Below, piece after piece: positions 1-28,203 of a stretch of DNA of 39,927 nt. This DNA comes from Dehalococcoidia bacterium (GTDB taxonomy: Bacteria; Chloroflexota; Dehalococcoidia; SZUA-161; SpSt-899). The notes beneath the pieces were generated by a model, which worked only from the letters and a program-made list of their open reading frames with translations, was not told the DNA's origin and did not search any database. Numbering within the stretch: position 1 is the first letter of the stretch; the number at the start of each line of letters is the position of its first letter. The DNA lies in NCBI GenBank assembly GCA_028711995.1, contig JAQTRE010000015.1:1-39927 (forward strand), written 5' to 3'. Made by a program: the position numbers and the translations under genes.

Positions 1-2058
1 CTCGACGGTCTTGGCGTGAATCATGGTGAAGATGTTGAACCGGGGCCAACGGGCGCTCGTCTGGCGCTCGTAACAGTGGGTAACCTGGGGGAAAGCGGCC
101 ATCTGCTGTCCCACTTCGTCAACGCGATCCTGTGGAACAGCCCAACACACCAGCGCATTGGCAACAAATCCGGCATTCCTCTGATCGAGGGTGCCCCCGA
201 AGCGGCGCATTATTCCTCGCCCCCTCAGAGATCGGCACTGAGCAAGGAATTCATTGACTTCCATTCCGGCGCTTGAGGCCATTTCATCGAAGGGTCGCGG
301 CACAATCGGCAGGTTCGTCTGCACCTGATTGATTACCGCCCGCTCCGCGGGCTCCAGGGGCACGGCACGCCGAGCCCCTCCGGTTTTCTGATTGGTCTGC
401 TTCCGTGATGTTGTTCCTTCCAGGTCAAAGAACAGCCTGATCTTGAAAATCCTCAGCGCGGGCAGCTCAACCATTGCCTCCGGTGCTAGCTGCTCCTCCA
501 GTTGGCAGAGGGTTCGGGCTAACTCGGGCTTGTTCCGAACAGCCAGGGTAAACCACAAATTGTAGGTATGGTCGCGCTGATAATTGTGCCCCACACCGGG
601 ATGCTGATTGATGATCTGCGCTGCCGATTCGATCCTCTCCGAAGGAAATCTCATAGCTACCAGCGTGCTTTCATAGCCGAGGGCTCTCGAATCGAAGACG
701 GGGCCGATGGATCGGATGATTCGATCCTCTTTGAGTCGGGACACACGCTGGATTACTTCTGCTTCGTCGATGCCGATCTTTGAACCAATGTCGGCGAACG
801 GCTCCAGCGTCAGGGGAAAGTCAGTTTGCAGCAGATTCAGCAAGCGCCGATCGGTCTCATCTAATGAGCCTTTGATTAAGTTCGACTCACTTTGATTCCC
901 TTTTGCCGGCTGGTAAACACAATACGGTTCCGCCTGGAGGTAATCGCCTGTGGACTCGTAGGCGCGGGCGCGGCAACCGCCGCACAGTCGCTTATACTCA
1001 CACTCTCCGCATTTGCCCTTGATTCCAGAAAGGTCTCTCAGTTCATTGAAAAGGGATGACCCATTCCAGACTTGGGAAAAGCTCTCTTTCTTGAGATCGC
1101 CTGCTGCCACATCCAGATAGCCGCAGCCCTGCACTCGGCCCACGTGGGAAATGAAGCAAAAACCTACACCGGCCAGACATCCCCGGGTGGTCCTATTCAT
1201 GGCCGATTGTCCTTTCATAGAAGGGGACTCAGGGGAATTAGGGACTGTTTCCAACCTTTCGCTAAACCCCCTAGCCCCCATCTCTTTGGGGGAATGTTGA
1301 ATTGGGTGGGCGACGAAAGGATTCTTTCCCCTTCGTTGCGCCGCAATCCGCATGTAATGGGGAGCATCGGTGGGTTTGAAGAAGATGCGGTCGCCGAGTT
1401 GGGATTGCTTCTCATAAACCCAGTTCAGGATACGCTCATATTCTTCGGCAGGAAGCTCCTCACTCGCCAGGCCTTTTCCGCGACCCGTCGGCACCAGCAT
1501 GAACGGATGGAAGGCGACGGCTCCCAAATCCAGGGCCAGACCAAGCAGTGCCTCCAGATGGGGGGCATTCATCCGGGTGATGGTGCTGTTGATCTGCACT
1601 TCGATTCCGGCTTTTTGCGCTGCTTTGATTCCAGCCACCGCCGCATCGAAGGCACCTGATTTACCCCGAAACTTGTCCTGCAAATCCGGCACAGGAAAGT
1701 CGAGGCTGATTCCCACTCGGGAGATCGGTACCTCGGCCATTCTGGCAGCCAATTCATCAGTGATGATCGTCCCATTGCTGCCGATCACCACCCGCAATCC
1801 TCTCTCAGTGGAGTATTTACCGATTTCGAATACATCCGGTCGAAGCAGAGGCTCTCCCCCGGTGAGGATCAGGATCGGCTGGCCAACCTCCAGAATGCTA
1901 TCGACGACTCGGAAGCACTCCTGCGTGGAAAGCTCGCCAATGTAGTCAGTATCCAGAGCTTCAGCCCGGCAGTGGGCACAGAGGAGGTTGCATTTCCGGG
2001 TGATCTCCCAGGCAACCAGACTGAGTCTCGGAGTAAGAAGATTCGGCTCGTGGCTCAT
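1..2058 (-). CDS. ahbD: Fused AhbD-like radical SAM / AhbA-AhbB siroheme decarboxylase (3' end outside window)
   Basis: One uninterrupted reading frame of 686 codons runs from an ATG at 2058 to the window edge; I translated it by hand and found no stop. Residues 1-370 are a radical SAM enzyme with the CxxxCxxC cluster motif at C23/C27/C30, GGEP, and the C-terminal GCLAG...CFISHVG block and Cys-rich tail (CGECEYKRLCGGCRARAY) typical of AhbD, the Fe-coproporphyrin III decarboxylase that makes heme. After a linker of about 16 residues come two Lrp/AsnC-like modules. The first (LDETDRRLLNLL, then PGVGHNYQRDHTYNLWFT) matches AhbA. The second (NAGFVANALVCW, VTHCYERQ, WPRFNIFTMIH) matches AhbB, which with AhbA decarboxylates siroheme. 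The C-terminal ~40 residues are missing only because the window ends. The ATG overlaps the ahbC stop as ATGA. An insertion of about 28 residues near 252-280 includes repeat-derived sequence. The fusion would join the first and last steps of the alternative heme route in one polypeptide. Confidence 0.9.
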   Translation of the reverse strand, partial: MSHEPNLLTPRLSLVAWEITRKCNLLCAHCRAEALDTDYIGELSTQECFRVVDSILEVGQPILILTGGEPLLRPDVFEIGKYSTERGLRVVIGSNGTIITDELAARMAEVPISRVGISLDFPVPDLQDKFRGKSGAFDAAVAGIKAAQKAGIEVQINSTITRMNAPHLEALLGLALDLGAVAFHPFMLVPTGRGKGLASEELPAEEYERILNWVYEKQSQLGDRIFFKPTDAPHYMRIAAQRRGKNPFVAHPIQHSPKEMGARGFSERLETVPNSPESPSMKGQSAMNRTTRGCLAGVGFCFISHVGRVQGCGYLDVAAGDLKKESFSQVWNGSSLFNELRDLSGIKGKCGECEYKRLCGGCRARAYESTGDYLQAEPYCVYQPAKGNQSESNLIKGSLDETDRRLLNLLQTDFPLTLEPFADIGSKIGIDEAEVIQRVSRLKEDRIIRSIGPVFDSRALGYESTLVAMRFPSERIESAAQIINQHPGVGHNYQRDHTYNLWFTLAVRNKPELARTLCQLEEQLAPEAMVELPALRIFKIRLFFDLEGTTSRKQTNQKTGGARRAVPLEPAERAVINQVQTNLPIVPRPFDEMASSAGMEVNEFLAQCRSLRGRGIMRRFGGTLDQRNAGFVANALVCWAVPQDRVDEVGQQMAAFPQVTHCYERQTSARWPRFNIFTMIHAKTVE
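1265..1303 (-). repeat. Partial copy of the dispersed hairpin repeat, inside the AhbD domain
   Basis: Read on the minus strand, this stretch has the same CCCCC-loop-GGGGG hairpin followed by GCTAGGGGGTT as the repeats at 18694, 23504 and 32164. Here it is in frame and encodes roughly residues 252-265 (HSPKEMGARGF), between the conserved APHY and GCLAG blocks, where family members have a much shorter spacer. Confidence 0.7.
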
Positions 2059-3224
2059 GGGGTAATTCCGATTTCTTCGTCGGTCAGGTAGCAGGCCGGA
2101 TCCTCGGCCCAGATATCATCGAACACTGCTTCGGCCCGCGCCCGCAGGTTGCCGTTGCAGATTTCCAGATGCTGACAGACAGCACAGCGCCCCTTAAGCA
2201 GACCCCGGCGATTCTTGAGCCCGGCCATGATCGGATTGGAGGTATCCAGCCAGATATCGCCGAAAGATCGCTGGTGGACATTTCCGAAAGAGAGGCTCTG
2301 CCAGAACTGATCGGCGTGGACGTTGCCCCTTGAATCCACCGCCCCGATGCGAATACCGGAGTTGTTGCCGCCGTTGGTTTGCAGCAGCTTTAGCACATTC
2401 GCCGCCCGTTTTTCATCGCGCGATTTGGCTTTGAGATAGAGATAAACGCCGTCGGCATGATTGGCCACCAGCAAGACTTCCTTTTTCAGCCCCCGTGAAT
2501 AGAGGTCGAGGGTGCGATCGCAAATGAGATCGACCATTCTTCGCGTTTCGGCATGGTTGAGATCGATACTTCGGAGGTCGTTTCCTCTGCCGGCATAGGC
2601 CAGATGATAGAAACAAACGCGGTCGATGTTCTCCCGCTCCAGCAGATCGAAGATGGCCGGAATCTCCTGGTGATTGGCGCGGGTGACGGTCATCCTTAAA
2701 GACACCCTTTGCCCTACGGTGATGCAGTGGCGGATGCCATTGAGAGCAGCTTCGAACGCCCCTTTCTGGCCGCGAAATACATCGTTTTGCTCACCTACGC
2801 CATCGAGGCTGATTCCCACTTCGCGAAATCCGATGTTGCGCATCTCGACGGCCATTTGTGAGGTGATCAGCGTGCCGTTGGTGGAAACCACCACACCGAG
2901 TTGATTGGCGACGGCGAAGCGAGCAAGCTCAAGGAAATCCTTCCGGAGCGTCGGTTCGCCGCCGGAGAAAAGCAACACCGGGACGTGAAACTCGGCAAGC
3001 TGTCGGATGAATGTCTTCCCCTCGGCAAGGGTCATTTCCTCAGAGGCTCTTTGAGCGGTGGCATCGGCGTAACAGTGGATACAGCGCAGATTGCATTGCC
3101 GGGTGCAGTTCCAGACCACAATGGGTCGAGCTTCAGAGGCTGGCGAAAGGCCTTCCCCCTGCCCGTAGCGCAAATGATCGCCGGGGCCGATTTCGTCGCA
3201 AAGGAGCCTGGAAACGGAGATCAT
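2055..3224 (-). CDS. ahbC: AhbC-type radical SAM enzyme (12,18-didecarboxysiroheme deacetylase), NirJ family
   Basis: A 389-residue radical SAM protein of the AhbC/NirJ group. AhbC removes the acetate side chains of 12,18-didecarboxysiroheme to give Fe-coproporphyrin III in the siroheme-dependent heme pathway; the related NirJ acts in heme d1 synthesis. Visible motifs are C44/C48/C51 (NCTRQCNLRCIHC) for the SAM-binding [4Fe-4S] cluster, FSGGEPTLR, the family-typical FYHLAYAGRG, the DSRGNVHADQFW block, and a C-terminal second-cluster region (GRCAVCQHLEIC...WAEDPACYL). Length is normal. It overlaps the upstream regulator by four bases (ATGA) and the downstream ahbD fusion by four bases, so the three genes are almost certainly translationally coupled. 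Having AhbA, AhbB, AhbC and AhbD functions together, with no heme d1-specific gene in view, favours heme b rather than d1. The AhbC-versus-NirJ choice is from memory of the motifs. Confidence 0.85.
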   Translation of the reverse strand: MISVSRLLCDEIGPGDHLRYGQGEGLSPASEARPIVVWNCTRQCNLRCIHCYADATAQRASEEMTLAEGKTFIRQLAEFHVPVLLFSGGEPTLRKDFLELARFAVANQLGVVVSTNGTLITSQMAVEMRNIGFREVGISLDGVGEQNDVFRGQKGAFEAALNGIRHCITVGQRVSLRMTVTRANHQEIPAIFDLLERENIDRVCFYHLAYAGRGNDLRSIDLNHAETRRMVDLICDRTLDLYSRGLKKEVLLVANHADGVYLYLKAKSRDEKRAANVLKLLQTNGGNNSGIRIGAVDSRGNVHADQFWQSLSFGNVHQRSFGDIWLDTSNPIMAGLKNRRGLLKGRCAVCQHLEICNGNLRARAEAVFDDIWAEDPACYLTDEEIGITP

Positions 3225-3877
3225 TTGGATTCTGCAACTTCCTGGTGATAATTCTGATGGGCCGTCACCAGAGCAAGCAACGCCTCATCGGTAATCCAAT
3301 TGACCAGCGGGATGGCCTCGGCGGCGCGTTCATTGAGTGCCTTTTTCTTCTTCAGAAGGTCGGCGGCCGCATTGACCAGCGGCGAGCGATGCAGCAGAAA
3401 GGCCTCCAGCGAATCGGAGAGGGAAATCTCCAGTTCAGCCAGAAGGGCACCGAACTCGCTCCCGATCTGGCGAGCCATTTGCAGCGTTTCATCCCGTTTG
3501 GTCGGTTTGGTGATATAGGTGATGACCACGCCGTGGATTCGTTTTCCCAGTTCGCGGAGCTTGTCTCGCGATTCCAGATCGAGTTTGTTGTACCAAGGGG
3601 CGTCGGCGAAATGGTCCCTGGCAATCTGGATATCCTGGGCAGGAGCCATCTCCATCCGGGCCACCACATCTCTGATGCCATGCCTCCGCTGCCGAGTGCC
3701 CATGAATCGGCGCAGCTCATCTTCCTGGTAGCGGCGATGTCCGCCGGGGGTGAGAAAGACCTTGATCTGCCCCTCATCGGTCCACTGGCGCAATGTGATC
3801 TCGCTAACGCCCAGCAGCTTGCTGGCCCGGCTGATGCCCAGGAGAGAACTTCTACTGGCAGATTCGCTTGCAGTCAT
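3221..3877 (-). CDS. MerR-type regulator with RsbRD_N-like helical C-terminal domain
   Basis: A 218-residue protein. Residues about 13-60 form a MerR/excisionase-type winged helix-turn-helix (GISRASKLLGVSEITLRQW...TPGGHRRY), the usual DNA-reading module. The remainder (about 85-215) is all-helical and resembles the RsbRD_N-type sensory bundle found in stressosome-related proteins; that match is by eye and tentative. It is the first gene of the heme operon and overlaps ahbC by four bases, so it probably controls these genes, perhaps in response to heme, iron or redox state (inference). No ribosome binding site is obvious before the ATG (upstream bases are AT-rich, TATCTATTCGAC), so the transcript may be leaderless. 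It has no cysteine cluster of the SoxR or metal-sensing MerR type. Confidence 0.75.
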   Translation of the reverse strand: MTASESASRSSLLGISRASKLLGVSEITLRQWTDEGQIKVFLTPGGHRRYQEDELRRFMGTRQRRHGIRDVVARMEMAPAQDIQIARDHFADAPWYNKLDLESRDKLRELGKRIHGVVITYITKPTKRDETLQMARQIGSEFGALLAELEISLSDSLEAFLLHRSPLVNAAADLLKKKKALNERAAEAIPLVNWITDEALLALVTAHQNYHQEVAESK

Positions 3878-25806: not shown

Positions 25807-25832
25807 GAGCCATTCGATCAAGTGAATGGCTC
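25807..25832 (+). terminator. Possible terminator downstream of the zinc ribbon gene
   Basis: GAGCCATTC, 8-nt loop, GAATGGCTC: a perfect 9-bp stem about 100 nt after the gene. The tail (CTTCACTTC) has few Ts, so it is only a candidate. Confidence 0.35.
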
Positions 25833-25920
25833 CTTCACTTCAAAAGGCCCCATGCAAGTGAGCATTCTGGGATCCCCGGACGTCTTTAAGGTGGAGCAAA
25901 GAACGCAAGGAGGTTGCAGG

Positions 25921-28203
25921 ATGAAAGCGAAAGTTTCTCAGGGGATCATTCTTCTGATGATCCTGGCACTGTTAATGGGGGCGTGCTCAAACTCCGGGAA
26001 TGATGAAAATAGCCCCACGGCAGCAACTCAGAAAGAAAGCCAGAACATCGCGGAACAGTTCGTGAAGAACAGCCCCACGTTTGCCTTCGATGGCATCCTC
26101 GAAGCCCTGAAGCTGACAGACACCCTCACACTCCGATGTCCTTCTTGCTGGACTTTCGTTTTTGAGTTCGATAGCCGACATGCCGGCTACGGAAATAGAA
26201 CAGGGCAAATACTCGCGCAAGTCATTACCCTGCACACAGCAACGATCACCGTAGTACAGGGAGAAGTCACACAAGCCAACCTGGACGAGAAATGGGATAT
26301 GATCGAGCAGAAGGAAATCACTTCCGTCGTTGGCGGGCCCTGCAAATATACGGACATCCCCGGAACGGCACGAATCACATCGATCAAAGACGCCGACCCG
26401 AACAGCGCCAACTGCAACGATGCGGTGGAGGTGATTTTCGATTTCACCCCTGATTCCCCATCTGCCATCGATACATACAGCTTCCCCAACTGGAAGGATA
26501 CCAATCAAAGCCTTACCTTCGGCGGCGGAATGAACCCATCAAGGGAATGGGTTGAGAAACAAGGGCTAAAAGAGGGCAGTGAGCTTGCCTGCATCCGATC
26601 AGAGATCACAGAGGGAACGTGCACGCCGGTGATCTTCTCATTCCCGACTATCAATTTCGAGGGATGGCAAGACGACTGCTATGAAAACGAATCTGGCGAG
26701 CAGGTGGCTGTGGATACCAGCTTTTCAGGCAAAGAAATCAAGGTGAAGGTTGGCCAATTGATACTAGTGGCTCTGGCATCTAACCAAACCACCGGGTTTA
26801 AATGGGAATTGATCTCCAACAGCGATGAGGAAGTCCTGCAAAAGACCAGCTACAGATACGAAGGACCAAAGACAACCGAGCCGCCCGCGCTTGGGGCTGG
26901 AGGCAAAGAAGTTTGGACCTTCAAAGCACTCAAGGAAGGCACAAGCACCATTTCCATGGCTTACAGCCGACCCTGGGAGAGCGTGCCTCCGGCCGAGACG
27001 TTCGTTTTGCCGATACAGGTCGGCCCGCAAGAGTCAGGAGAAGTAGGTAAAACAGAGATAATATCTCAAGTGAAAGGGGACAGCGCCTTCGCCTTCGACC
27101 TCTATCAACTGCTCAGCAAAGACGAAGGGAATCTCTTCTACTCTCCGTACAGCATCTCACTGGCACTGGCAATGACCTACGCCGGCGCTCGCTCTCAGAC
27201 GGAGCAACAGATGGCGGACACGCTTCACTTTATCCTCTCACAGGAAAATTTGCCTCCGGCCTTCAAATCTCTGGCTCTCGAACTTGCCAGGCGGGGGCAG
27301 AGCGCCCAGGGCAAGGACGGAGAGGGTTTCAGACTAAACATCGTCAATGCCATCTGGGGACAAGAAGGCTATCAGTTCCTCGCCCAATATCTCAATACCC
27401 TGGAAAACAACTATGGCGCCGGACTGAGGCCACTCGATTTCGAGAACGCGCCGGAGGAATCTCGCATCACCATCAACAACTGGGCCAGTAATCAGACGGA
27501 AGGCCGAATCAAAGACCTCATCCCGCAAGGCGTCATCGATATTCTGACCCGGTTGGTGCTCACCAATGCAGTCGACTTCAATGCCGCGTGGCAACATCCG
27601 TTCGTTGAAACCGCAACCAGCAACGGAGCATTTCATCTGCTCGATGGCAAGGAAGTCTCCGTGCCAATGATGCGGCAAGCCGAATCCTTAGGCTACACCA
27701 GCGGCGAGGGATATCAAGCAGTTGAACTTCCTTATGATGGCCATGAACTCTCGATGGTGATACTGCTTCCCGATACCGGCAACTTCAAGGCATTTGAAGC
27801 CTCTCTGAGCGCCGAGAGTGCGGAAACGATTTTGGATGATCTCGCATACCGGAAGGTGGCCCTGACCCTGCCGAAGTTCACCTTCGATTCAAGCTTTGGC
27901 CTCTCAAAAACCCTCGCCGATATGGGAATGCCGGATGCCTTCGATCCGTCCTCTGCCGACTTCTCAGGCATGGATGGCAGCCGGGACCTCTACATCAAGA
28001 CCGTAATCCATAAGGCATTCATATCTGTGGACGAAGCTGGCACCGAAGCTGCTGCTGCCACTGCCGTGGTGGTAGGAGTTACCTCTATCGAAACCGATCC
28101 GCCCATTCAGGTTACCGTTGATCGCCCGTTCATCTTCTTGATTCGCGATATCGAGACGGGAACGATTCTATTCCTCGGGCACGTGATAAACCCTGCTGCG
28201 TGA
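25921..28203 (+). CDS. Lipoprotein fusing a chagasin-like domain and a serpin: dual protease inhibitor
   Basis: 760 residues. The signal peptide has a lipobox LLMGAC (C22), so it is anchored to the outside of the membrane. Residues about 42-255 are a cysteine-containing domain I know only by pattern (RCPSCWTFVFEFDSRHAGYG). About 265-372 is a chagasin-type (MEROPS I42) domain with the three papain-blocking loops NQTTGF, GAGG and RPW. About 388-758 is a serpin (I4) with NLFYSPYSISLALAM and the hinge GTEAAAATAVVV (near 706), the Ala-rich form seen in inhibitory serpins. By alignment to antitrypsin P1 would be the Thr (or a neighbour) of VGVTS; the loop after it is about four residues longer than in antitrypsin. 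AGGAGG lies before the ATG at 25921. It would block both papain-like cysteine proteases and serine proteases from outside. Confidence 0.9.
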   Translation: MKAKVSQGIILLMILALLMGACSNSGNDENSPTAATQKESQNIAEQFVKNSPTFAFDGILEALKLTDTLTLRCPSCWTFVFEFDSRHAGYGNRTGQILAQVITLHTATITVVQGEVTQANLDEKWDMIEQKEITSVVGGPCKYTDIPGTARITSIKDADPNSANCNDAVEVIFDFTPDSPSAIDTYSFPNWKDTNQSLTFGGGMNPSREWVEKQGLKEGSELACIRSEITEGTCTPVIFSFPTINFEGWQDDCYENESGEQVAVDTSFSGKEIKVKVGQLILVALASNQTTGFKWELISNSDEEVLQKTSYRYEGPKTTEPPALGAGGKEVWTFKALKEGTSTISMAYSRPWESVPPAETFVLPIQVGPQESGEVGKTEIISQVKGDSAFAFDLYQLLSKDEGNLFYSPYSISLALAMTYAGARSQTEQQMADTLHFILSQENLPPAFKSLALELARRGQSAQGKDGEGFRLNIVNAIWGQEGYQFLAQYLNTLENNYGAGLRPLDFENAPEESRITINNWASNQTEGRIKDLIPQGVIDILTRLVLTNAVDFNAAWQHPFVETATSNGAFHLLDGKEVSVPMMRQAESLGYTSGEGYQAVELPYDGHELSMVILLPDTGNFKAFEASLSAESAETILDDLAYRKVALTLPKFTFDSSFGLSKTLADMGMPDAFDPSSADFSGMDGSRDLYIKTVIHKAFISVDEAGTEAAAATAVVVGVTSIETDPPIQVTVDRPFIFLIRDIETGTILFLGHVINPAA

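Follow-up and report, generated by a model that had tools for sequence, protein, structure and literature searches.

The heme biosynthesis proteins AhbD, AhbA and AhbB are encoded by one continuous frame in the Dehalococcoidia bacterium studied here (G000). We regard this as probably a genuine and young gene fusion, most likely produced by a one-base insertion or deletion in an operon that is typical of the class, with modules that most likely keep their ordinary activities. The kind of fusion is already known, and the present one is an independently formed case in a bacterium of the Chloroflexota. The window, by which is meant the whole stretch of 39,927 nucleotides that was analysed, contains the following features of the fusion gene and its operon.

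904 to 2058, minus strand: AhbD module, residues 1-385 (Pfam Radical_SAM and SPASM; NCBIfam TIGR04545, 432 bits)
1969 to 1992, minus strand: radical SAM cluster motif CNLLCAHC (CX3CX2C), residues 23-30, its three Cys invariant in alignment A4
919 to 1179, minus strand: SPASM Cys C294, C312, C350, C353, C359, C362 and C380, from motif comparison with PMC10452713 and invariant in alignment A4
865 to 903, minus strand: linker, residues 386-398, the fusion junction, where relatives carry the ahbD stop and the ahbAB start
888 to 902, minus strand: putative relic of the ahbAB start, AAGGG (902-898), 7 nt, GTG (890-888), suggested by three-frame translation
421 to 864, minus strand: AhbA module (siroheme decarboxylase alpha; NF040708, 241.9 bits), with HNYQR, an HXYXR motif, at 574-588
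1 to 336, minus strand: AhbB module (siroheme decarboxylase beta; NF040707, 202.8 bits), with HCYER at 64-78
2055 to 3224, minus strand: ahbC, 12,18-didecarboxysiroheme deacetylase, a NirJ1-type radical SAM protein (TIGR04054, TIGR04546), in the same place in relatives
3221 to 3877, minus strand: MerR-type HTH protein with a globin-like C-terminal domain, overlapping ahbC by 4 nt

The frame begins with an ATG at 2058 and runs for 686 codons to position 1, where it is still open. This edge of the window coincides with an end of contig C15, the window starting at the first base of that contig, and the AhbB module is cut there. Its final residues lie on a second contig, C69 (L038). When this genome was searched with the protein, residues 645-685 turned up a second time, with 100% identity, at the C69 end; the ends of the two contigs share 126 identical bp (window 1-128 against the end of L038), and a mismatch just past the overlap lies in the last two bases of C15. 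When the two contigs are joined the frame gives a protein of 722 aa that is terminated by a stop. Judging from this overlap C15 and C69 are very likely genomic neighbours, and the fusion is not created by the open contig end or by the cut of the window.

The domain content agrees with what the sequence-only reading had described, a continuous minus-strand frame with an AhbD-type radical SAM domain followed by two AsnC-like modules. Pfam places Radical_SAM at residues 18-160, SPASM at 294-353 and then, twice, a NirDL-like HTH with AsnC_trans_reg2. The linker of about 16 residues proposed in that reading does exist, although its length is nearer 13 and varies with the chosen start of the HTH. 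The AhbD model TIGR04545 is the top match among 71 NCBIfam families, with a score below the curated cut-off of 500, and three class relatives likewise fall under it (437-463 bits). The AhbA and AhbB models score above their cut-offs of 140 and 125, respectively. The AhbD module is 54-68% identical to most class relatives and about 37% identical to a deep branch. Profile and motif matches together support the identity of the frame as AhbD plus AhbA plus AhbB.

Cysteines of the radical SAM and SPASM clusters have defined roles in AhbD (PMC10452713), as does the HXYXR motif in siroheme decarboxylases (PMC4145669). Both AhbD signatures, CX3CX2C and the C-terminal CX2CX5CX2CX17C, are found here, as CNLLCAHC and as C350-C353-C359-C362-C380, and HXYXR occurs in both AhbAB halves, as HNYQR at residue 491 and HCYER at residue 661. 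None of the modules has lost its catalytic motifs. The full eight-Cys SPASM motif that characterises a subset of AhbDs is represented by seven of its eight Cys. The AhbDs of Methanosarcina barkeri and Desulfovibrio, whose family is the best NCBIfam match, share the CX3CX2C motif and SPASM Cys with the present protein, but here the fourth AuxI ligand is changed from Cys to the Asp of TDAPHY (P0001 residues 230-235) and AhbAB is added at the C-terminus. At this position, which corresponds to Cys223 of M. barkeri AhbD, about 35 class relatives carry Asp and two carry Cys, a few rows of the comparison having matched another site. The C-terminal module matches the AhbA/AhbB pair 4czd and, over its whole length (profile match E 1.5e-105), the fused AhbAB / NirDL of PDB 4ch7, which is likewise a single chain with two AsnC-like halves but, unlike the present fusion, no attached radical SAM domain.

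The start ATG of the fusion gene overlaps, by 4 nt, the stop of the gene upstream. The product of this upstream gene scores 549 bits with the NirJ1 model TIGR04054 and 516 bits with TIGR04546, both under the cut-off of 650, and we call it AhbC because of its operon context and because cytochrome cd1 was not found. The assignment of AhbD, AhbA and AhbB to the fused frame, with AhbC supplied by the overlapping upstream gene, had been anticipated from the letters of the window and is supported. No second AhbAB was found in the 96% complete genome, so that the fused protein is the sole AhbAB found; nor was an equally close AhbD homologue, the other AhbD-like radical SAM proteins there being 35-38% identical. 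Elsewhere in this genome a CobA-HemD fusion is directly followed by a HemB-like frame (L140 1303-3000, plus strand, contig C104), and neither ferrochelatase nor cytochrome cd1 was found in the genome search. This set of genes fits the formation of heme b by the siroheme route. Heme d1 was considered as the end product and is not favoured, since cytochrome cd1 was not found.

The MerR-type protein carries a C-terminal domain of about 150 residues, and at least 20 class relatives have its gene immediately upstream of ahbC. It is a likely regulator of the ahb operon. Structural matches of its AlphaFold model (pLDDT 84.6), to globin-coupled sensor globins and to the pXO1-118 sensor domain, are weak in E-value (0.017) but consistent, and F160, H163 and R164 are invariant among its relatives (alignment A2). 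On the basis of the model the protein may be considered a candidate globin-like-sensor regulator. Two further observations concern other genes of this genome. More than 12 frames of 311-401 aa with two Lrp/AsnC HTH matches each (e.g. L001, L006, L008) represent an expansion of tandem-AsnC regulators that is distinct from AhbAB. In the window itself, a 793-aa protein (25822-28200, plus strand) combines a chagasin-like inhibitor domain (308-396) with a serpin (421-791), that is, two protease inhibitors in one chain.

Comparison with relatives of the same class shows how unusual the fused state is. The order ahbC-ahbD-ahbAB is conserved among them, and in a non-random set of 47 same-class genomes, taken from high-scoring matches and with both genes readable, ahbD and ahbAB are separate in 45 and fused in two, the present genome and G254 (L102). 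No further stop-free full-length match was found in the family of G254 (30 genomes) or, at a stricter cut-off, in 400 genomes of the phylum. The closest relative of the present genome, G003, is split by an in-frame TAG, and the genus of G254 is not uniformly fused, G349 being split like G391. Some long archaeal frames (L083 and L084, 698-723 aa) seemed to hold a reversed fusion and were set aside, as they are without an AsnC-type domain. Consistent separation in relatives had been named beforehand as an observation that would speak against the fusion; separation proved to be nearly general and not complete, G254 being independently fused.

The pair formed by G254 (fused) and G391 (split, L122) is informative about how such a fusion can arise. 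These two members of one genus are 95% identical over the 2.2 kb of ahbD-ahbAB, and the single internal gap between them falls exactly at the ahbD/ahbAB border, where G391 reads CTGATTCAG and G254 reads CTG-TTCAG. The base missing in G254 is the A of the ahbD stop TGA. Its loss joins the two frames and at the same time puts the ahbAB ATG out of frame. The junction in the window reads AAAAGGGAATCAAAGTGAGTCGAACTTAATC. Here the linker has no stop codon and, on reading its sequence, no in-frame ATG, GTG or TTG near the expected start of AhbAB, while its GTG lies one frame off the AhbAB frame and meets a TAA after four codons. The AAGGG and GTG together look like a disabled ahbAB start, which suggests that the window junction came from the same kind of indel as in G254. 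It is possible that a substitution was responsible in the window instead, because the closest relative is split by an in-frame stop.

The same features of the junction bear on whether AhbAB might in addition be translated on its own, from an unusual internal start such as an ATC that precedes the HTH by a few codons, or through ribosome re-entry after the GTG. The Shine-Dalgarno-like AAGGG upstream of that GTG would favour separate synthesis, but the GTG is in the wrong frame with a stop close behind it and the usual start codons are lacking near the beginning of the module, and we think this quite improbable.

It must also be asked whether the organism itself has two separate genes that one missing or changed base joins only in the assembly. 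That a single base suffices, as G254 and G391 demonstrate, that the Shine-Dalgarno/GTG relic lies one frame off in the window, and that 45 of the 47 relatives are split would all be in keeping with such an error. An early argument that the loss of both stop and start could not be explained by a single error was dropped, as in G254 one base does both. Against an error, the ahbC, ahbD and ahbAB frames of about 55 class genomes, 157.7 kb in total, showed no frameshift. Two split ahbAB cases in this survey are natural ahbA and ahbB genes, and the ahbC of G019, which has one nonsense codon, does not belong to the 157.7 kb set. At this rate error predicts at most about 0.02 fusions (95% upper limit, 47 junctions of 20 nt) compared with the two observed, a comparison on which it bears that the window itself was chosen because it is fused. 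Moreover, the sequence from the GTG relic to the AhbAB frame contains no homopolymer, and those genes of the 40 kb contig that were scanned span their Pfam domains with no obvious splits. An assembly or sequencing artefact is in our judgement unlikely.

The two fusions in the class are considered independent because the AhbD tree places each beside a split sister: G000 groups with G003, and G254 with G391, in different clades. The G254 protein likewise has AhbD-AhbA-AhbB in one frame with no stop, but is about 53% identical to the present one, belongs to a different family and arose by its own one-base deletion relative to G391. Outside the class, a paper of 2024 describes an ahbAB-ahbD fusion in five Methanomicrobia assemblies, cluster 36.2 (PMC11237513); an AhbD-AhbAB fusion, of which the sequence-only reading knew no example, is therefore not without precedent. 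A report of a bacterial AhbD-AhbAB fusion was not found in the open-licence literature. In cluster 36.2, too, a single polypeptide carries siroheme decarboxylase together with AdoMet-dependent heme synthase, and the feature that defines it, both enzymes in one open frame, is found here, the archaeal cases being known from the text; they differ in being archaeal, with a domain order absent from the main text, whereas the present fusion is bacterial and ordered AhbD-AhbA-AhbB. A local origin is argued from the split sisters on the class tree, and the origin of the present fusion appears to be separate from that of the Methanomicrobia fusions.

We therefore had to consider whether fusion has been favoured by selection. 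An earlier proposal was that the fused protein may bring the pathway together in a complex, and a tether between AhbD and AhbAB could in principle build a complex with AhbC, channel siroheme-derived intermediates or enforce stoichiometry. Two independent occurrences in the class and the five Methanomicrobia assemblies could be read in this way. But the fusion is rare and is not kept within genera, and the product of AhbAB passes to AhbC, not to AhbD. The fused modules catalyse the first and third steps with AhbC between, so that one would not expect an intermediate to pass straight from one of them to the other. In-frame neighbours in the split relatives are at the chance rate: of the 45 split junctions 15 have the same frame with at least one stop, 20 are shifted by one and 10 by two, and 15/45 is the one third expected by chance. 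We had also considered read-through of the stop in the split relatives, many of which have one in-frame stop; since the in-frame share equals one third there is no sign of dependence on it. An adaptive fusion is unlikely, and the proposal of a complex finds no support, as 45 of the 47 relatives keep the genes apart and the closest one is among them. The broader notion of a selected trifunctional heme synthase that forms a metabolic complex with AhbC and was repeatedly invented in Dehalococcoidia-like bacteria and methanogens is very improbable. The rare and patchy occurrence of the fusion indicates that the event was nearly neutral.

A young fusion by a small mutation could have proceeded as follows. 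The operon typical of the class consists of a MerR-like regulator, ahbC, ahbD and ahbAB, with genes tightly packed or overlapping. Where ahbD meets ahbAB, a minor mutation, most likely an indel of one base, would have removed the ahbD stop and placed the already fused ahbAB in the frame of ahbD. The protein is presumably made as one chain and active, each module of the single polypeptide most likely retaining its ordinary activity: the AhbAB module would decarboxylate siroheme, the separate AhbC would make iron-coproporphyrin III and the AhbD module would turn this into heme b. Tethering itself may be near neutral: it would mean that modules whose steps are not consecutive are synthesised 1:1.

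These genes illustrate that neighbours in an operon can become a multi-domain enzyme by one base, which is the whole difference in length between the sisters G391 and G254. Should the protein prove active, the fused and split versions in sister species would offer a direct test of tethering in siroheme-dependent heme synthesis. The fused frame would then also support a functional link between AhbD and AhbAB in bacteria outside the sulfate reducers.
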